A DNA stretch of 64,000 nt. Source: Macrocystis pyrifera. Its lineage: Eukaryota > Sar > Phaeophyceae > Laminariales > Laminariaceae. Location: assembly GCA_031763025.1 (NCBI GenBank), contig JASSKH010000039.1, forward strand, positions 2,728,001-2,792,000, in the 5' to 3' direction. Below are positions 29,445-64,000 of the stretch, one piece after another; position 1 is the stretch's first letter, and each line of letters starts with the position of its first letter. The notes beneath the pieces are model-generated. The model did not search any database and was not told where the DNA came from. It saw only the letters and a list, made by a program, of their open reading frames with translations. The translations under genes were made by a program, and so were the position numbers.

Positions 29445-29691
29445 CACTAGTGAGTCCGGCGATCTTCTATTGGCAAGCGTAGCCAAGGCCAACCTAGAGA
29501 GGTGGGAACCTGCTTCGGCATGCCTAGTTTCGAGGACATGCCCAGTCAAGAAGCCAGCGTGGAGAGTGAAAAGACCATAGAGGAGATGAAGAAGAAAATA
29601 GAGGTCCGCGCAGGGAGCAGGAAAGGAAGGGGGGGCCGGTGGCGGGACGAGAGGAGAAGGAACTGCTGGAAGACAACAAGCAGCGTCGACG

Positions 29692-31278
29692 GTGCCGACA
29701 CCTGGGCTGGAGGCCCGATCAGGCATGTCACTACCTTCTTTGTACCGCCCAAGTTTGTCCCAGTCGAGACCCCCGAAGTTCGATAACGTAGAGGCCCACT
29801 TTAGCATGTGGCGTAGTAAGTTTTTGGCATACCTATCATCGCTTGGGTGCTTGCATGTACTCAGTAGCACAGCAAACCCAGTTATGGTGGGTGACATGAG
29901 GGTTTCGCCGGAGGAACTAGCCTCCAGACATTCCCCCCAGGAGATTAGGGACGCGAGATTGGTGTATGGATTGATGATGGAGGCCATGACAGGATACGAT
30001 ATGGCTGAGTTTAGAATGCAAAAGGCAATGTCTCCGAGTGGTGCTTGGAAGGAGTTGGAAGACTATTATATGCCGAAGACGATAGCCGCAACTCATAGAT
30101 TGAGGAGGGAATTTGATACAATCCGAATGGCCGAGGATGAAAACCCCTTGCTGTTCCTAGGAAGGGTGGACAAGGCAGCAGATGAGCTGGCGATGCTAGG
30201 ATGTGGTAAGAGTACAGAGGAAGTAAACCGCCACATTGTCACCAACCTCTCATCTTTGAATACTATTCAAAGCAAGTCCATCCTTTCCCGCCCTTCCATC
30301 CCCCGTTCCGAGATCGATGAGATCATCCGTGACGCGTATGCTAACGACAAGGTAGAGAAGGAGATGGTTTCTAGGGCGTTGGGCGTGCAGGGAGTGGTAG
30401 GTCAGCATGCCTTGTATGCCGGAGGAGCGCAGCCTGCCGGTGGCGGAGGTGCGGGTCCAGGAGGGGGAAGGAGGAACAGGAGAGGTGGGAGGCTCAAGGA
30501 TGGGCAACAGCAGCAGCAGCAGCAGCCCCAACGACAGCAGCAGCAGCAGCAGCCCCAGCAGCAGCCCCAGCAGCAGCAGCAGCAGCAGCAGCAGCTCCAG
30601 TATCAGCAGCAGCAGCAGCAATATCAGCAGCAGCAGCCTCAGCAGCAGCAGCAGCAGCACCAACGGCAGCAGCAGCATCCTCAACAGCAGCAGCAGCACC
30701 GTCCCCATCAGCAACGTGGTAACCGGGGAGGAGCTTCGTCGGGGGGGATAACCGGCCCCAAATGGCGTTGGGATGCCGTGGCCTGCAGGTACCGTTGGGA
30801 TGACTCAGCCCCAGACCCCTTCGGTACGGGTGGAGTAGTTCCCCCCATGGGTTGGGTACCTACCGACCCACCACCAGGGACGTTGCCGCCGATGCCCCCG
30901 CCGCCCGCAGCGACTCCGGCAGGCTGGGGTCCCCCACCGAACAACCCATGGAGGCGCAAGGGGCCCTGCTTCCGGTGCGGCAGACCGGGCCACCACGCCG
31001 CGGAATGCTCCCGCGCAAATGAATATCGCTTTCCCGGGTGCTGCTTCTCCTCAAGGTGGCTGGCTGCAGGAGACGCCCTACGGCAGTGGTGGGTATACCT
31101 CGGCCGGAGCTTCACCGCCACAGCAACCCTCCTTCAGCACTTCCCCCTCCCCTGGCCCAGCGAACAACGGCAACCCTACCTACGTTCGATCCGCTATCGA
31201 TCCTCACCGCGCAGTTTGCGCACCAAGGCAAGGGGAATGATGATTTTTTTTGGGTTAATGGGAGAGAAGAGTGGGTAG
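29692..31278 (+). CDS. gag: Gag-like protein with polyQ tract and CCHC zinc knuckle
   Basis: A 528-codon frame. Residues about 29-240 (KFDNVEAHFSMWRSKFLAYL, EDYYMPKTIAATHRLRREFD) follow the copia Gag/UBN2 alpha-helical capsid pattern. A Gly/Arg-rich stretch and then a Gln-rich block (about residues 272-343, encoded by CAG) follow, then a Pro/Gly/Trp-rich segment. A knuckle CFRCGRPGHHAAEC (CX2CX4HX4C) lies at residues 426-439. Beyond the knuckle the frame continues about 85 codons with unlike composition, while the next frame (from 31016, MNIAFPGAASPQGG) looks like the ancestral continuation. An indel there is therefore likely. The true start may lie further upstream, since frame changes obscure 29500-29700. 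Confidence 0.75.
   Translation: MPTPGLEARSGMSLPSLYRPSLSQSRPPKFDNVEAHFSMWRSKFLAYLSSLGCLHVLSSTANPVMVGDMRVSPEELASRHSPQEIRDARLVYGLMMEAMTGYDMAEFRMQKAMSPSGAWKELEDYYMPKTIAATHRLRREFDTIRMAEDENPLLFLGRVDKAADELAMLGCGKSTEEVNRHIVTNLSSLNTIQSKSILSRPSIPRSEIDEIIRDAYANDKVEKEMVSRALGVQGVVGQHALYAGGAQPAGGGGAGPGGGRRNRRGGRLKDGQQQQQQQPQRQQQQQQPQQQPQQQQQQQQQLQYQQQQQQYQQQQPQQQQQQHQRQQQHPQQQQQHRPHQQRGNRGGASSGGITGPKWRWDAVACRYRWDDSAPDPFGTGGVVPPMGWVPTDPPPGTLPPMPPPPAATPAGWGPPPNNPWRRKGPCFRCGRPGHHAAECSRANEYRFPGCCFSSRWLAAGDALRQWWVYLGRSFTATATLLQHFPLPWPSEQRQPYLRSIRYRSSPRSLRTKARGMMIFFGLMGEKSG
30506..30716 (+). repeat. CAG-coded polyglutamine tract inside gag
   Basis: About 70 codons, mostly CAG, interrupted by CCC, CTC, TAT and CAC codons. 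It is in frame in gag. The complementary polyL frame on the minus strand is an artefact. Confidence 0.9.
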
Positions 31279-33053
31279 CGGATTCGGGAGCAACTTTTCA
31301 AGTGACTGGCAACCCTTTTGGTATGGTAAACTGTACTCCCCCTCCCCCTGGTAAGAGCCGTTTGGTGGTCGGTGACATGAGGTCACTGAAGATAGAGTAC
31401 TTCGGTCAGATTCCAATTGTGATGCACAGCTCTCAGGGTGACGTTCAAGTTAGGCTGATGGACGTAGCATACGTACCCGGTGTTCGCTTCAATTTATTTT
31501 CGCTTCATGCAGTTATGTTGAAATGCCCGGTGACACTTGATGCTCAGGGAGCTCACACGTTGAATGGACAGCTGTCTTTCGTGCGTAGGGACGCGGGTTC
31601 ATACGTAGACGCCACGCGGATTGTAGAGACCCCGATTGCTGCCGCTGTTTTGGCTCCTGGAAAAATGAGGAGGATCGATATTGACGACCTTCACGTTGCC
31701 CTTGCCCACTCCCATGCTGACACTCTCCGTGAGACGGCACGCCAGATGGACATTAAGGTTTTTGGGGAGTTGGTTCCGTGTGCTGGGTGTTCTGAGGCGA
31801 AAGGGAGGAGGATGGCGGTGCCGTGGACGACCGAGTGCCGTTCTACCAGGCCTCTGGAGCGTCTGTTCGTGGATCTGTCGGGACAACAGCCTACGTCTGC
31901 TGGCGGTGCGTCATACGTGATGATGATCGTCGACGACTACTCGCGACCTGGATGGCCGTATTTCTTGAAGCGGAAGTCCGACGTCCCGAAGGTCTTCGCT
32001 GGTTTCCTGGCCGACATCAACGCGAAGGGTGTGCCGTCCATCGTGGAGTGCCTTCGCTCGGACAACGGCACCGAGTTCACCAAGGCGGAGTTCGTGGAGT
32101 TGCTCAACCACCACGGCATCCGCCGCGAGTACACGCCCGTCGATTCTCCGAAGCATAACGGGGTGGTCGAGCGACGGATCGCCATGACGCTGGAGCTTGC
32201 AATGGCGTCCCGCCTGGAGGCCACCCGCCTGTTCGGCGATGCAAGGATGCCGGCGACGCAGCCCCTCTGGGCTGAGTCATGCGTGTACGCGAGCGATGTG
32301 ATCAACATGACGGCGAGGGTAAGGGACAAGCCGGAAATGCACTCGCCGTACCGAAAATTCAACGGGAGACCACCGTTTGCGCGGCTTCTCCCGTTTCTGA
32401 AGCCGGGCTTCCACCACGTCAGGAGGACCCTGAAGACCGAGCCGAAGGCGGAGGCTTGCTTCTACCTCAACGGCGGCAACCACCACGCAGCTGACTGCAG
32501 CAAGATCCTGCTGATGTCTGGCCGAAGGTCGTTCTCCCGTGACGTCACTTGGGAACACCCGAGGAAACCGTTTGTGGGGTTACTGCCTTCGGAGGAGGAG
32601 AGCTCCCCGCCGCCGCCGTCGCCGTCGCCACCGCCGCAAGGTGCGCCGGAGCCTCTGAGGGGCCCCGACGTATGGCCCGAGCCACCGTCCCCATCTCCAC
32701 TGCTGCCGCCGCAACCGCCGTCATCAACGCCGCTACCGCCGCCGCCGCCGCCGTCGCCGTCGCCACCGCCATCGCCGTCACCGTCGCCGTCGCTGCCGCC
32801 GTCATCGTCACCGCCGCCGCTACAGCCGCCGTCACCGCCGCCGCCGTCGCCGTCGCCGCCGCCGCCGTCGCCGTTATCATCGCCGTCGCCGTCGCAGCAG
32901 TCTCCGCAGCCACAGCTTTCGCAGCGTGCTGCCCGGGCACTGGGTTATTATATCCCGGACCCGGCGGATGGCGATGTGCTGAGGGGGCGGACAAGGGGGG
33001 GAGACTGCACGACACCAGGAGAGCGGTGGCGCTGTGCAGAGAGGACGGACTAG
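31038..33053 (+). CDS. pol: copia Pol fragment: protease, GAG-pre-integrase, integrase, proline-rich tail
   Basis: A 671-codon frame, genuine from about 31190 (LTAQFAHQGKGNDDFFWVNG). Protease motif DSGA is at residues 82-85. The H-x4-H...C-x2-C pre-integrase zinc motif is in LHVALAHSHADT...PCAGC. Integrase triad Asp279 (LFVDLS), Asp342 (RSDNGTEF) and Glu378 (NGVVER) has the D-D-35-E spacing. YRKFNGRPPFARLLPF is the typical copia integrase tail. Residues about 520-625 are Pro/Ser-rich. The frame ends early at 33053, because a G7 run at 32995-33001 has one G more than in copy 2. It overlaps gag by 240 bp in the -1 frame. Confidence 0.85.
   Translation: MLLLLKVAGCRRRPTAVVGIPRPELHRHSNPPSALPPPLAQRTTATLPTFDPLSILTAQFAHQGKGNDDFFWVNGREEWVADSGATFQVTGNPFGMVNCTPPPPGKSRLVVGDMRSLKIEYFGQIPIVMHSSQGDVQVRLMDVAYVPGVRFNLFSLHAVMLKCPVTLDAQGAHTLNGQLSFVRRDAGSYVDATRIVETPIAAAVLAPGKMRRIDIDDLHVALAHSHADTLRETARQMDIKVFGELVPCAGCSEAKGRRMAVPWTTECRSTRPLERLFVDLSGQQPTSAGGASYVMMIVDDYSRPGWPYFLKRKSDVPKVFAGFLADINAKGVPSIVECLRSDNGTEFTKAEFVELLNHHGIRREYTPVDSPKHNGVVERRIAMTLELAMASRLEATRLFGDARMPATQPLWAESCVYASDVINMTARVRDKPEMHSPYRKFNGRPPFARLLPFLKPGFHHVRRTLKTEPKAEACFYLNGGNHHAADCSKILLMSGRRSFSRDVTWEHPRKPFVGLLPSEEESSPPPPSPSPPPQGAPEPLRGPDVWPEPPSPSPLLPPQPPSSTPLPPPPPPSPSPPPSPSPSPSLPPSSSPPPLQPPSPPPPSPSPPPPSPLSSPSPSQQSPQPQLSQRAARALGYYIPDPADGDVLRGRTRGGDCTTPGERWRCAERTD
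31243..31250 (+). promoter_or_regulatory. possible -1 ribosomal frameshift site (T8) at gag end
   Basis: Within the gag/pol overlap the gag frame reads ATT TTT TTT GGG, so the heptamer T TTT TTT lies in register. A -1 slip would continue directly into the protease frame as F-F-W-V-N-G. The gag stop is 28 bp downstream. Evidence against is that ancestral-looking peptide in the third frame (31016-31240) suggests simple indels instead. Confidence 0.25.
32598..32905 (+). repeat. proline/serine-coding low-complexity tract, copy 1
   Basis: CCGCCG/CCGTCG-type repeats encode about 100 residues of PPSPSP, SPSPPP and LPPSSS type after the integrase. The same tract is in copy 2 (about 62880-63190) with length differences, including an extra PP pair there. 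Confidence 0.9.
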
Positions 33054-50613: not shown

Positions 50614-51895
50614 TGTAGTGCGTTGTTAGTGGATCACCTGGTTTAGTGGATCACATTGTCAAAAATGAGTGGTGGATCACCGGGTTAGTGGATCACAATT
50701 TCAAAAAAAGCTGGTGGATCACCATGTTTCGTGGATCACATTTAGGAGAACGAGTGGTGGATCACCGACTTAGTGGATTGTGCCATTTGGAAAATGAGTG
50801 GTGGATCACCGGGCTAAGGGATCACAGTTTCAAAAATAGCTGCTGGGCGTGAGTCATGACATTTTTTTCGATTTATTTGTTTTGAGGGCGACCCTTGCGA
50901 GTACGAGATCGTACGTACCAGAAAAACATACAAGAAGTACGATATAGTACCAGAGATCAATAAAAAACATGCATGGTGGATCACACCGGCGGAAAAACCG
51001 CTGGAAAACCGGATAGTGCATCAAAATGTGTGAAGTTGAGAAGTAGTTGATTTATGAAGTAGACAACGTTGATTTTGAACCAGAGAAAGGCAACAAGAAA
51101 TACGATGTCGTACCATAAAGATGAACTATTTATTAAATATCCGATTTTCCAGCGGTTTTTCCGCCAGGGTGATCCACTAAGCCTGCATGGTTTTTATTCA
51201 TCTCTGGTGCGATAACGTACTTCTTGCATGTTTTTCTTGTGCGAAATCGTGGTTGTTCATCCATCTGGTGTTAATGCTGTTTCACATGAACTTATCAACT
51301 TCCTACTACCTTGTGATGCACTATCCGGTTTTCCAGCGGTTTTTTTCCGCCAGTGTGATCCACTAAACATGGCCTTTATTCATCTCTGGTACGATATCGT
51401 ACTTCTTGTATATTTTTCTGGTGCGAACTCGTGGTTGTTAATTTGGTTTTAACGCTGTTTCGCATCAACTTGTCAACTTCTTACATTGTGATGCACTATC
51501 CGGTTTTCCAGAGGTTTTTCTTCCAGCGTGATCCACTAAGCCTGGTGTTTTAAGTATATCTGGCACGATATCGTACTTCTTGTATGTGTTTCTGGTATAC
51601 GTACGATGTCGTACTCGTAAGGGCCGCCCTCAAAACAAATAAAACAAAAAAATGTAATGACTCACGCCCAGCAGCTATTTTTGAACTTGCGATCGGCTAG
51701 CCCGGTGATCCACCACTCAGTTTCCAAAATGTGATCCACTAAGCCGGTGATCCACCACTCATTTTCCTAAATGTGATCCACTAAACATGGTGATCCACCA
51801 GCTATTTTTGAAATTGTGATCCACTAACCCGGTGATCCATCACTCGTTTTTGACAATGTGATCCACTAAACCAGGGGATCCACTAACGCACTACA
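50614..51895. mobile_element. 1.28-kb foldback element with GTGGATCAC-repeat arms
   Basis: The left end starts TGTAGTGCGTTGTTAGTGGA and the right end is its inverted complement. The first 95 bp of the arms differ at only a few positions, and inverted similarity continues for about 400 bp. Each arm holds alternating GTGGATCACCGGGTTA and GTGGATCACA-TTTC-AAAA units, at least eight GTGGATCAC-type words per side. Inside lies a block (CCGGATAGTGCATCA next to GGCGGAAAAACCGCTGG and a GTACGATATCGTAC-like palindrome), once in the left arm and three times inverted in the right half. No transposase frame is present. A target duplication was not evident. Confidence 0.85.
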
Positions 51896-51949: not shown

Positions 51950-52165
51950 TTGGGCGGATGCTCCCAGTCGGTTTCTGCTGCCATCCTGCTACTACTGCTG
52001 CTGCTGCTGCTGTGCTACATGCTGCTGGTCTTGCGGCTGCGGCTAAACAGGCAGCAGCACTGACAGCAGCAGCAGCAACAACCAACCTCAGCAGCAGCGA
52101 AGCCTGCTACTCCTAATATGCTGCTGATGCTGCTGCTGTTCTTGCTGTTGTACTGCTGCTGTTGC
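51950..52165 (+). repeat. CTG/CAG-rich tract
   Basis: (CTG)n at 51990-52010 and (CAG)n at 52050-52095, then (CTGCTG) again at 52120-52165. The inverted CTG/CAG arrangement can form hairpins. Confidence 0.75.
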
Positions 52166-52169
52166 TGAT

Positions 52170-53487
52170 ATCGCCATCATGTGCAGGTCATCTCTCCCGT
52201 ATAAACGCCGTTGGCAGTAGGTACATTTCGCCGTACGTAGGTGTATTCCGTCGGCGTGGGTATTGGGTACTTGGCGGCTGGGGAGATAAAGGGCAGCATG
52301 CATTACTATATTGTACACAAATCCAAGTAATCTAAGTTCTGAAAAATGTGAGAAATCTCTCAGAACTGAGCTAATTAACTGCCCCCTCCAGGCACTAATA
52401 TAAAAAAGTATCGATGAGTTTCTGGCCCGTAATAGACGGTTCTGATTTTTTGGCTTCAGAGATCGGTGAAAAAGACTTTCATAACGTCGCAAAAATTAGC
52501 CATAAAAGTTGGTCTATAATTCGAGTGAATACCAAAACTGAGAACTGAAGCCGGCTTTGCCTTTCCTGCACCACTTAGCATCGACCTGATCCTGTTCGTA
52601 CTAAGATCAAATTGTGTATGTATGTTAACTTGCTTGAACATAATCACAAATTGGCACTGAGGTATAGAACTTACTCTAGATATCCCACACTCTGTGCGAG
52701 CTCGTTTGGTACATATCTTGCCTCTTAGGGCTCTCACCTGGAAATCGCCGCCATTTTTGACTTGCCGGACCTTTCCAGCGGCTCTTTTTGTTCTCTGTCG
52801 CTCTTGGCACGTTCGGTTATTTTTCTCCTTTTTTCTTATTTTTCTTCATGTGCGTGCGTGTACTCGGAGCACGGCACCGCGGGCTAGCCCGGCACAGTCG
52901 GGGGTGTCAGCGGGTGCTGGTGGGTAGAGGGGGAGCTCCAAGGAGCGCCGTCGCCCCTTTCGTGCCTAGGCGTCGCGTGTGCCTCGAGACACGAGGGATG
53001 CATGAATGAGCTCTGTCTGGCCTCCATTAAAATTTTGAATAGAGTATGTACGAGTTTTTAAGGGTCGTTCGGGATTGCAAGATAACATTCAAGCGGTGCT
53101 TATTTTTGCGACCGGGTTTGAGCTCAAGGAGAGGGCTGCGCAGTCTGAGCACCAACATTGTCGAGCTGGCGAACGACGGCTACGTTGAGCACCGGGCTTC
53201 ACGCGAGGCGGGCCACGGGGCTCACTGTGGTAGAGAGTGAAGAACCTTTCCCCGGACCAAATCGGTGGCGAGATGGTCGCGAGAGAGTGGCGGGCGTCGT
53301 ACGAGGCTGAGAGAGAAAATCTGCTGTTCGTTTTTTATTTTTATTTCTGATCGGTGTAACGTGTTCCAATCAGACAGGATATCACACGAGAGGTGACGGG
53401 GATTCTTTTCGTTGTGGAGTTTTCGGTTTCATTTTGATTGTTTTTGCGGTGCTGCTGTGCCGCGCTGTGCTATCTCTTTCGAACACA
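52170..53487. other. no supported gene
   Basis: The GC-rich stretch 52860-53230 has short plus-strand frames (LSTNIVELANDGYVEHRASR) without a recognised family. Otherwise nothing is seen. Confidence 0.3.
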
Positions 53488-60951: not shown

Positions 60952-61500
60952 TCAAATATTCATCAGAATATCCCGGTGGTAACGAAACACCGTGTTGTTG
61001 AGCGGCTTTGTCAAGAAGTCTGCATGCTGTTTCTCCGACTCGACATGGGTAATAACAAACTCCCCCTTAAAAATAAGCTCGCGCAAAAAGTGGTGTCGTA
61101 CGTCGATGTGCTTCGAATTCGACGTGCACACTGGATTTTGTGCCAGGTGCCTTGCCCCCTCGTTATCCTCGAAAACCGTAATGCATCTCTCCCCAAACCC
61201 CGGAAAAATAAAACTCCATACATAGCGCATGAACATTGCCTCCTTGATGGTGTCTGCCAGTGCTACATATTCGGCCTCAGTGGTTGAGAGTGTGACGCAT
61301 TTCTGCGTCCTAGAAAACCAGCACACACACGCCCCAGCACACATGATGGCCCACCGGAAACTGACCTCCTGTCAGTGGCTTTGTTGGCATAGTCTGCATC
61401 TGCAAACGCTACCAGCTCAAGCCCGCTACCCTTCTGGAACGTAATGCCGAAATCACTCGTAGAAAATACATACCCTAAAATACCGACTGCTGTCTTCCAG
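60952..61500 (-). pseudogene. copia RNase H domain, copy 2
   Basis: One frame (about 61500-61360) reads SGLELVAFADADYANKATDR with the first catalytic Asp region. The next (61344-60952) reads TLSTTEAEYVALADTIKEAM, then VFEDNEGARHLAQNP and SKHIDVRHHFLRE, the classic copia RNase H sequence, and ends at ILMNI and a stop. The two indels are compensating, so this part returns to the reverse-transcriptase frame. A single polyprotein is implied for the ancestor. Confidence 0.88.
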
Positions 61501-62355
61501 TGTACTATTCGTGTACCTCGCTACCGCCCTCACCGCGTTCGCAATATCTGGTCGTGTTTGGTTCGCAAGCCACATCAAGCACCCCACCAACTCGCGGAAA
61601 GGCCAATCACCCACGGGTTCATTCTCGTCAAACTCCTCGAGCTTCACACCAGTCGAAAGCGGGTTATTCCTCCCAGAACTAACACCAAACCTCGCCGCGG
61701 TATTTTCAGCGAACGCTTGCTGCGAAATCGTCCAAGTACCAGCATCCCAATCCCTCGAAAAACAACAACCAGCATACCACCGCAACTCGCCCAGATTGTT
61801 GATCGGAACAAGGTTGTTCAGGTCGTCACAGAACTGATCGCATCTAGCCTTGAGTCCTACAGCAAAAAGATCATCCACATGAACTACCGTTACAATGGAG
61901 ACAGAGCCCGACTCGACCAACCTCATGACACACGCGTCAGCGGGGCTCTGCTCAAATCCTAGACTCTTCATGTGAGTGAGAAGGTGGTTGTGCCACGACC
62001 TCGACGCTTGCTTCAAGCCGTAGAGACTGCGATTCAACCTGACCACCTTACCAGACATTTCGCCGCAGCCGGGAGGTAGTCGCATGAATACATCCTCATC
62101 CAAACTCGACTGCACGAACGCCTGCTCAGCATCAAAATGACACAAATCCAAACCCAACTCGCACGCAATAGCACCCAACAAACGGAAACAAGACGCTGCA
62201 GGCGTCGGAGCAAAAGTCTCAAAGAAATCAATACCCTCACGCTGCTTGAAACCTCGTGCCACCAGCCTTGCTTTCGCCCGCACCACGTCACCATGCTCGT
62301 TGGACTTCCAGGCGAACACCCACTTCGCCGAGATGACGTTGAGCCCCTCTGGTTG
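61453..62355 (-). pseudogene. pol: copia reverse transcriptase domain, copy 2
   Basis: Begins LNVISAKWVFAWKSNEHGD, continues ARLVARGFKQREGIDFFETF and FAPTPAASCFRLLGAIA, then LDLCHFDAEQAFVQSSLDED, LNRSLYGLKQASRSWHN and VVHVDDLFAVG. All copia RT blocks are present in order. The catalytic box is HVDD instead of the usual YVDD/FVDD; both Asp are kept. GDWPFRELVGCLMWLANQTR marks the RT-RNase H connection. The frame is the same as the integrase frame, from which a single TAG (62358-62356) separates it, and it is lost at about 61490 by a frameshift. The residue after the TAG is Gln. Confidence 0.9.
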
Positions 62356-64000
62356 CTACGTCGCTCCAAATGTCCCCGCGTCCGCCAGCCCATGGTACTC
62401 CTTGTCCATCGCCTGTCTCCAGATGGCCGAACACTCGTCCGCACACGCTTCAGCATACGAGTTCGGCGTCGAAAGCTCGCTCGCCGGGCGTGTGGGAAGG
62501 GGAGGGTTCTCGCGCGGTGGGGCTTGGTGGAAAAGTACATGGCCTATACCTTCCCGCGCTGCCATCAACGACAGCAGCCCATGCCCCATAGCCTCGCGGT
62601 TCCGCGCAGTCTCCCCTCTTGTCCGCCCCCTCAGCACATCTCCACCTTCCGGATGTCGCCCAGCTTCCCCCCTGGCCCGATCACCCTGCACACCGCCACC
62701 ACCCTCCTGGTGTCGTGCGGTCTCCCCCCTAGTCCGCCCTCTCTGCACAGCGCCACCGCTCTCCTGGTGTCGTGCAGTCTCCCCCCTTGTCCGCCCCCTC
62801 AGCACATCGCCATCCCCCGGGTCCGGGATATAATAACCCCGTGCCCGGGCAGCACGCTGCGAAAGCTGTGGCTGCGGTGACTGCTGCGGCGGCGACGGCG
62901 ATGATAACGGCGGCGGCGGCGGTGGCGACGGCGGCGGCGGTGACGGTGGCTGTAGCGGCGGCGGTGACGATGACGGCGGCAGCGACGGCGACGGTGACGG
63001 CGATGGCGGTGGCGACGGCGACGGCGGCGGCGGCGGCGGCGGCGGCGGTAGCGGCGTTGATGACGGCGGTTGCGGCGGCAGCAGTGGAGATGGGGACGGT
63101 GGCTCGGGCCATACGTCGGGGCCCCTCAGAGGCTCCGGCGCACCCGGCGGTGGTGGCGACGGCGACGGCGGCGGCGGGGAGCTCTCCTCCTCCGCAGGCA
63201 GTAACCCCACAAACGGTTTCCTCGGGTGTTCCCAAGTGACGTCACGGGAGAACGACCTTCGGCCAGACATCAGCAGGATCTTGCTGCAGTCAGCTGCGTG
63301 GTGGTTGCCGCCGTTGAGGTAGAAGCAAGCCTCCGCCTTCGGCTCGGTCTTCAGGGTCCTCCTGACGTGGTGGAAGCCCGGCTTCAGAAACGGGAGCAGC
63401 CGCGCAAACGGTGGTCTCCCGTTGAATTTTCGGTACGGCGAGTGCATTTCCGGCTTGTCCCTTACCCTCGCCGTCATGTTGATCACATCGCTCGCGTACA
63501 CGCATGACTCAGCCCAGAGGGGCTGCGTCGCCGGCATCCTTGCATCGCCGAACAGGCGGGTGGCCTCCAGGCGGGACGCCATTGCAAGCTCCAGCGTCAT
63601 GGCGATCCGTCGCTCGACCACCCCGTCATGCTTCGGAGAATCAACGGGCGTGTACTCGCGGCGGATGCCGTGGTGGTTGAGCAACTCCACGAACTCCGCC
63701 TTGGTGAACTCGGTGCCGTTGTCCGAGCGAAGGCACTCCACGATGGACGGCACACCCTTCGCGTTGATGTCGGCCAGGAAACCAGCGAAGACCTTCGGGA
63801 CGTCGGACTTCCGCTTCAAGAAATACGGCCATCCCAGTCGCGAGTAGTCGTCGACGATCATCATCAAGTATGACGCACCGCCAGCAGACGTAGGCTGTTG
63901 TCCCGACAGATCCACGAACAGACGCTCCAGAGGCCTGGTAGAACGGCACTCGGTCGTCCACGGCACCGCCATCCTCCTCCCTTTCGCCTCAGAACACCCA
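62356..64000 (-). CDS. pol: copia integrase and proline-rich linker, copy 2 (5' end outside window)
   Basis: An open frame from the window edge (GCSEAKGRRMAVPWTTECRS) to a TAG at 62358-62356. Integrase core LFVDLSGQQPTSAGG, RSDNGTEFTKAEF and DGVVERR keep the D-D-E triad. Substitutions against copy 1 include SRLGW for SRPGW and KHDG for KHNG. It continues into the proline-rich tract, then four GRTRGETARHQE-type repeats in frame, then AEACADECSAIWRQAMDKEY, which is the usual start of the copia RT region. Unlike copy 1, the repeat array is not frameshifted. Confidence 0.9.
   Translation of the reverse strand, partial: GCSEAKGRRMAVPWTTECRSTRPLERLFVDLSGQQPTSAGGASYLMMIVDDYSRLGWPYFLKRKSDVPKVFAGFLADINAKGVPSIVECLRSDNGTEFTKAEFVELLNHHGIRREYTPVDSPKHDGVVERRIAMTLELAMASRLEATRLFGDARMPATQPLWAESCVYASDVINMTARVRDKPEMHSPYRKFNGRPPFARLLPFLKPGFHHVRRTLKTEPKAEACFYLNGGNHHAADCSKILLMSGRRSFSRDVTWEHPRKPFVGLLPAEEESSPPPPSPSPPPPGAPEPLRGPDVWPEPPSPSPLLPPQPPSSTPLPPPPPPPPPSPSPPPSPSPSPSLPPSSSPPPLQPPSPPPPSPPPPPPLSSPSPPQQSPQPQLSQRAARARGYYIPDPGDGDVLRGRTRGETARHQESGGAVQRGRTRGETARHQEGGGGVQGDRARGEAGRHPEGGDVLRGRTRGETARNREAMGHGLLSLMAAREGIGHVLFHQAPPRENPPLPTRPASELSTPNSYAEACADECSAIWRQAMDKEYHGLADAGTFGAT
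62600..62812 (-). repeat. 57-bp tandem repeats, copy 2
   Basis: Counterpart of 32973-33190. Four units, in frame, each with a GRTRGETARHQE-like peptide. The G run that broke copy 1 is G6 here. Confidence 0.85.
62880..63190 (-). repeat. proline/serine-coding low-complexity tract, copy 2
   Basis: CCG/TCG-type repeats coding for PPPSPSP-like sequence between integrase and RT. Counterpart of 32598-32905 with small in-frame length changes, a sign of slippage under frame constraint or recent divergence. Confidence 0.9.

Follow-up and report, generated by a model that had tools for sequence, protein, structure and literature searches.

A foldback transposon family with 4-bp target duplications in the giant kelp Macrocystis pyrifera

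Foldback anatomy has been documented mainly in Mutator- and P-type elements. Tetris produces target duplications of 8–10 bp and has been placed in Mutator, where most foldbacks seem to belong (PMC4079207). Galileo produces duplications of 7–8 bp, with the consensus GTATTAC in D. willistoni (PMC4168063), and binding of its transposase domain to the subrepeats of the long terminal repeats has been shown (PMC3688188). Target words have also been described for Ginger elements, with CCGG or CCGT/ACGG being targeted by Ginger1 and RTATAY by Ginger2 (PMC2836005). Among brown algae, Ectocarpus carries giant KDZ, EnSpm, and Sola-1 elements, generally longer than 10 kb and reaching more than 30 kb, as well as several giant families without a transposase gene; most of its transposon families are still unclassified, and the terms “foldback,” “subterminal,” and “palindrom” are absent from the main text of the paper describing them (PMC12477816).

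We analyzed a stretch of 64,000 bp from the genome of Macrocystis pyrifera, hereinafter the window, in which a foldback of 1282 bp occupies positions 50614–51895. It opens with TGTAGTGCG at 50614 and closes with CGCACTACA at 51895, in agreement with the boundaries given in a preliminary description of the locus. The element consists of the following features, listed with window coordinates and strand.

50614..50622, plus strand: left terminus TGTAGTGCG, of the TGTNR type; the same terminus is found at many copies, with unlike flanks outside it
50614..50846, plus strand: left arm, module A, array of the word GTGGATCAC with a dimer period of 42–43 bp
50850..50914, plus strand: module B, a ~69-bp unit in single copy here but forming tandem arrays in longer relatives
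50914..51044, plus strand: module C, left copy, inverted with respect to the right-hand copies
51045..51137, no strand: central spacer, outside the main inverted pair and unaligned to the 15-kb relative
51138..51321, minus strand: module C, right copy 1
51322..51496, minus strand: module C, right copy 2
51497..51600, minus strand: module C, right copy 3, the outer part of which runs into the B/C junction
51601..51664, minus strand: module B, right copy
51668..51895, minus strand: right arm, module A array
51887..51895, minus strand: right terminus CGCACTACA, assigned from its position and from terminus matches in the genome

The outer parts of the two arms (50625–50778 and 51734–51887; 154 nt) are 95% complementary. 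The whole arms, however, each of ~430 bp, show 87.8% identity in BLAST and are identical at 379 of 424 positions (~89%) in a global alignment, so that their earlier characterization as near-perfect inverted copies applies to the outer part only. When inverted pairs of at least 40 nt were sought across the window (exact seed of 14, pair members at most 4 kb apart), 12 of the 13 pairs recovered fell within the element. The thirteenth, located outside, is a CTG/CAG match of 71%; a low-complexity CTG/CAG-rich stretch containing a 71% imperfect inverted repeat (51975–52170) adjoins the right side of the element.

The word GTGGATCAC, an interrupted palindrome of GTG-N3-CAC symmetry, is present in 19 exact copies inside the element (9 forward and 10 reversed) and in none in the remaining 62,718 bases of the window; 500 shuffles of the element yielded a mean of 0.004 exact copies. 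With one mismatch, there are 23 copies inside the element and 16 in the rest of the window. Several aspects of the preliminary description were borne out, including the composition of the arms as word arrays in two alternating contexts, GGTGGATCACCGG-like and TTAGTGGATCACA-like, which here recur with the 42–43-bp dimer period; the internal block, of which the left side has one copy and the right side three inverted ones, and its own palindrome, which is of the TACGATATCGTAC type; and the lack of a coding frame, the longest stop-to-stop frame wholly within the element being 78 aa. Three additional bases following TGTAGTGCGTT at the left end are absent from that description. Structure prediction for the single-stranded element gives mostly one long hairpin, a result obtained without a shuffle control at 1282 bp. 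Long inverted repeats composed of subrepeats fill most of the element, and its assignment to the foldback class is supported. No tRNA genes or Rfam families were detected in the window; comparison of the element with phages and plasmids yielded no match, and neither did a search of viral contigs with two exact patterns. Elsewhere in the window lie two Ty1/copia retrotransposon bodies in opposite orientation (29602–33053 and 61453–64000), with Pfam matches to gag-like, integrase, and reverse transcriptase domains and with proline/serine-rich and glutamine-rich stretches.

A similarity search of the Macrocystis pyrifera assembly (537,376,219 bases in 223 contigs) produced at least 280 matches at many places, a lower bound with 40 of 232 candidates scored. 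The 24-bp terminus TGTAGTGCGTTAGTGGATCCCCTG with up to two mismatches matches the genome 190 times (97 forward and 93 reverse), compared to zero matches for the reversed-pattern control. Among the terminus matches listed, there are at least 18 inward-facing exact pairs separated by 937–1802 bp, 14 of which were newly examined. Together with one pair spaced by 16.6 kb, these 14 constitute a set of 15 new inward-facing exact pairs from the matches listed (exact-end set), outside of which are four further exact pairs, L016, L026, L043, and L044. Copies with both ends measure between 0.9 and about 15.2 kb, and their flanks are unlike, except in some segmental duplicates. The genome search proposed in the preliminary description thus revealed a multicopy element with ends common to the copies and 4-bp duplications at many of them; neither of the two outcomes named there as arguing against a mobile element, a single-copy sequence or arm identity extending beyond the termini, was observed.

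On the small contigs C2, C15, C17, C158, and C180, exact termini of the same orientation follow one another every ~102–114 kb among the matches listed, and C2 carries one more exact terminus in the other orientation. The arm-bearing places L041 and L042, on C158 and C2, are 99% identical over 9.8 kb. This pattern suggests that unplaced contigs contain a repeated unit of ~105 kb with one arm.

Exact 4-bp target duplications were found in 7 of the 20 two-ended cases from the similarity search, compared to 10 of 380 mismatched flank pairings, and none of these 20 cases displays a duplication of 3 bp or of 5–10 bp. In the exact-end set, which is biased to intact ends, the duplication is 4 bp long in 12 of 15 cases and 5 bp long in one, with 4-bp matches in 4 of 210 mismatched pairings. 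Across the 35 cases of both sets, there is no 3-bp duplication and a single 5-bp one. It should be noted that one of the 20 cases is a second, inner boundary of L048, the duplication of which adjoins an altered left terminus, and that some cases have common flanks: those on C56, C157, and C184:98107 represent one site, and L007/L009, L014/L026, and L046/L047 are related. With each site counted once, 17 independent 4-bp duplications remain.

These duplications bear on several alternative explanations. CACTA/EnSpm elements have ends that begin with CACTA and duplications of 2–3 bp; the kelp ends begin with TGTAG and the duplications are of 4 bp, in agreement with neither feature. A foldback of the Mutator or P/Galileo lineage, like most of those described, would share the anatomy of the kelp element, namely long inverted repeats made of subrepeats and no coding capacity, but the 4-bp length argues against both Mutator-type (8–10 bp) and Galileo (7–8 bp) duplications; with none of the 35 cases showing a duplication of 6–10 bp, we consider such an origin highly improbable. 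Still less credible is an immobile satellite or palindrome spread by segmental duplication and ectopic recombination. Common flanks in the C222 trio, in the C206, C193, and C201 pairs, and in C56/C157/C184 are in line with such spread, as are the 16 of 35 two-ended cases without an exact 4-bp duplication, among them the window copy, L039 (6.9 kb), and the 16.6-kb pair on C205. Nevertheless, the 17 independent exact duplications, the fixed boundary, and the target preference refute this explanation for the family, although it is possible for single copies.

The target preference concerns the center of the duplication, which is a pyrimidine-purine step at 13 of the 17 sites (p about 2e-5 relative to the frequency of the step in the window) and at 32 of 45 other ends, by our own count from the listing, in which some rows have flanks in common with one another or with those of the first 17 sites. 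Further out, all 17 sites have a purine at the third base before the duplication and a pyrimidine at the third base after it, but this holds for just 26 of 45 held-out ends, which derive mostly from copies without duplications and partly have flanks in common; this outer pattern is therefore not claimed as a preference. While multiple copies, common termini, and target duplication characterize the family, the window copy itself, flanked by AACC on the left and ATAT on the right, has no target duplication. Given that its left flank is unlike the right one and does not have the preferred pyrimidine-purine center, which the right flank does possess, the left junction may have undergone rearrangement since the element inserted. 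By eye, no reciprocal-recombination partners for the window copy were recognized among the flanks available.

The window copy had been considered young, or else as having arms kept identical by strong selection. Because a DNA transposon is copied with both its arms at once, the 95% match of the outer arms gives no date for the insertion. In end-to-end comparison with 13 copies, the window copy reaches at most 90.8% identity, and this distance, together with the missing target duplication, indicates that the window copy is not young; the same evidence lends no support to strong selection on the arms. Among the genome matches listed, no other one of at least 500 bp exceeds 90% identity (rounded) to the window copy, and end pieces of 150–233 bp reach up to 96–97%. 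In a tree of arms with unsettled bootstrap, left ends do not form a group apart from right ends, and the arms of the window copy are not sisters. By contrast, L044 and L045, located on two contigs, are 99.2% identical, so that some members of the family have probably moved recently; of these two, only L045 is flanked by a 4-bp duplication.

Comparison with the longer relatives, of 2.6, 6.9, and ~15 kb, sheds light on the architecture of the small copies. The ~15.2-kb relative (L037+L051, C222:10401213 onward) opens on its left side with the 42-bp word array seen in the window copy, behind which lie arrays of 69-bp and 190-bp units, and has on its right side units of ~269 bp about 2 kb from the end, followed again by the word array. 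The window element aligns to these end regions in all but ~95 bp at its center, which are not found in the 15-kb relative, and hence looks like a transposon of which little but the ends is left: it is almost entirely end sequence, in mirrored order. Among 15 two-ended loci, ten span the whole window element (L013 without its end bases), and in the other five the likeness is confined to its outermost ~300 bp at either end, the interiors being different. The right terminus of the 15-kb relative is without its last bases and no target duplication is present, so that mobility of the giant element itself is not demonstrated. A 7.2-kb stretch of its interior is also found at six other places, the longest piece being 89–96% identical, and two of the six (on C219 and C220) are 99.5% alike over 1.78 kb on the left side. 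Between copies, the ORFs of the giant element display no clear protein-level selection, as judged by eye and with no formal test. A subterminal unit of ~68 bp is present in 22.6 copies at L053 (C220:4323401–4325200), to which L054 (C219:6176401–6178200) is 99.5% identical; this expansion could be a satellite in the making, as in Tetris.

To search for a transposase, we submitted to Pfam 35 ORFs, 32 of them distinct, from loci at family ends. No transposase was identified among the 32 distinct ORFs, an incomplete sample of the family, and none of them matched a THAP domain. Accordingly, the longer relative with a transposase between its arms, as envisaged in the preliminary description, was recovered in the first respect, as longer relatives do exist, but not in the second for the ORFs scanned. 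The matches of note are a copia-like gag with a zinc knuckle, just under the curated cut-off, as well as reverse transcriptase and Gypsy-like integrases; the rest are sub-threshold. One integrase (L040) is located inward of a family end and another (L012) just outside an element. We read the gag, reverse transcriptase, and integrases at family ends as belonging to unrelated retroelements. In L040, a Ginger transposase was considered and rejected: an RNase H-like stretch recognized by eye upstream of the integrase leads us to read it as part of a nested Gypsy retrotransposon. At L040 together with L088 (C220:13642401–13656800) and at L032, a Gypsy-like element adjoins, as judged by eye, sequence resembling Ngaro/PAT-like tyrosine-recombinase retroelements, the recombinase having no significant Pfam match at these loci.

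Three possible origins of the family remain to be weighed. It could be a foldback derivative of a Ginger-type element, with a transposase related to Gypsy integrases. The TGTAG ends conform to TGTNR, the duplications are 4 bp long, and CCGG or CCGT/ACGG occurs at some flanks; however, these words account for 2 of the 17 independent duplications, versus about 99% in Ginger1 (PMC2836005), and the kelp sites are not AT-rich like those of Ginger2. Moreover, the sole integrase inward of a family end is the one read as nested Gypsy, and Ginger is missing from the superfamily table for Ectocarpus (PMC12477816). Overall, we regard a Ginger origin as unlikely. Somewhat better placed, albeit still doubtful, is derivation from a giant DNA transposon, Sola-type or else unclassified, of the kind known in Ectocarpus, where a Sola1 element of 21.5 kb and giant families with no recognizable transposase have been reported (PMC12477816). 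Giant relatives are present in the kelp family too, and Sola2 duplications are 4 bp long; yet those in two slime moulds are AT-rich (PMC3627910), which the 17 kelp sites are not, and no Sola transposase was seen in the ORFs scanned. Equally tentative is a lineage of brown-alga DNA transposons with a new or unclassified transposase and independently evolved foldback anatomy. Such a lineage might combine 4-bp staggered integration at pyrimidine-purine centers with multi-site ends built of interrupted-palindrome words, and could perhaps range from ~1-kb elements consisting entirely of ends to giants with expanding subterminal arrays.

Whichever origin applies, the window element is very probably a non-autonomous, cut-and-paste foldback DNA transposon of giant kelp, composed almost entirely of the terminal and subterminal repeats of a larger family. 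The family is demonstrated by exact common termini, many copies, 4-bp duplications, a target preference, and a ~15-kb relative containing every repeated module. A transposase would be supplied in trans, from an element elsewhere in the genome, and would bind the arrayed GTG-N3-CAC words, probably as a dimer, as suggested by their symmetry. It would then pair the ends, cut at TGTAG/CTACA, and insert the element with a 4-bp stagger. That the GTGGATCAC words represent multiple transposase-binding sites is plausible by analogy with Galileo (PMC3688188). The small form may have originated when the interior was lost and subterminal repeats underwent unequal exchange.

The kelp family, with its 4-bp duplications, lends support to the view that foldback anatomy has evolved repeatedly from unrelated transposons, and its ends provide a natural set with which to ask what selects for arrays of binding sites. 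In addition, the inverted repeats could drive rearrangements in a species that is commercially used and ecologically important. The open-access literature searched, which did not extend to Repbase or paper supplements, contains no published account of the family.

Among the described systems, Tetris resembles the kelp family in its inverted arms of tandem subrepeats, variable interior, lack of a coding frame, and satellite-like array expansion (PMC4079207), but differs in its duplications, 8–10 bp versus 4 bp in kelp, a comparison made by description rather than by sequence. Galileo likewise has long terminal repeats of foldback-like form in which the transposase-binding sites are repeated, and it includes copies with extended arms, the longest of which are without a transposase (PMC3688188, PMC4168063); unlike the kelp family, it has duplications of 7–8 bp, a known transposase, and an animal host. 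The giant transposons of Ectocarpus are brown-algal as well, a likeness drawn by description (PMC12477816). Ginger1 and Ginger2 share with the kelp family the TGTNR ends and 4-bp duplications, with terminal repeats of up to 270 bp in Ginger (PMC2836005), whereas the target words differ and the ORFs scanned include no Ginger transposase. Collectively, the kelp elements constitute a real non-autonomous foldback family, which the 4-bp duplication sets apart from the described fly foldbacks; this length fits Ginger- or Sola-like elements, with the target words of Ginger1 at only 2 of the 17 sites.
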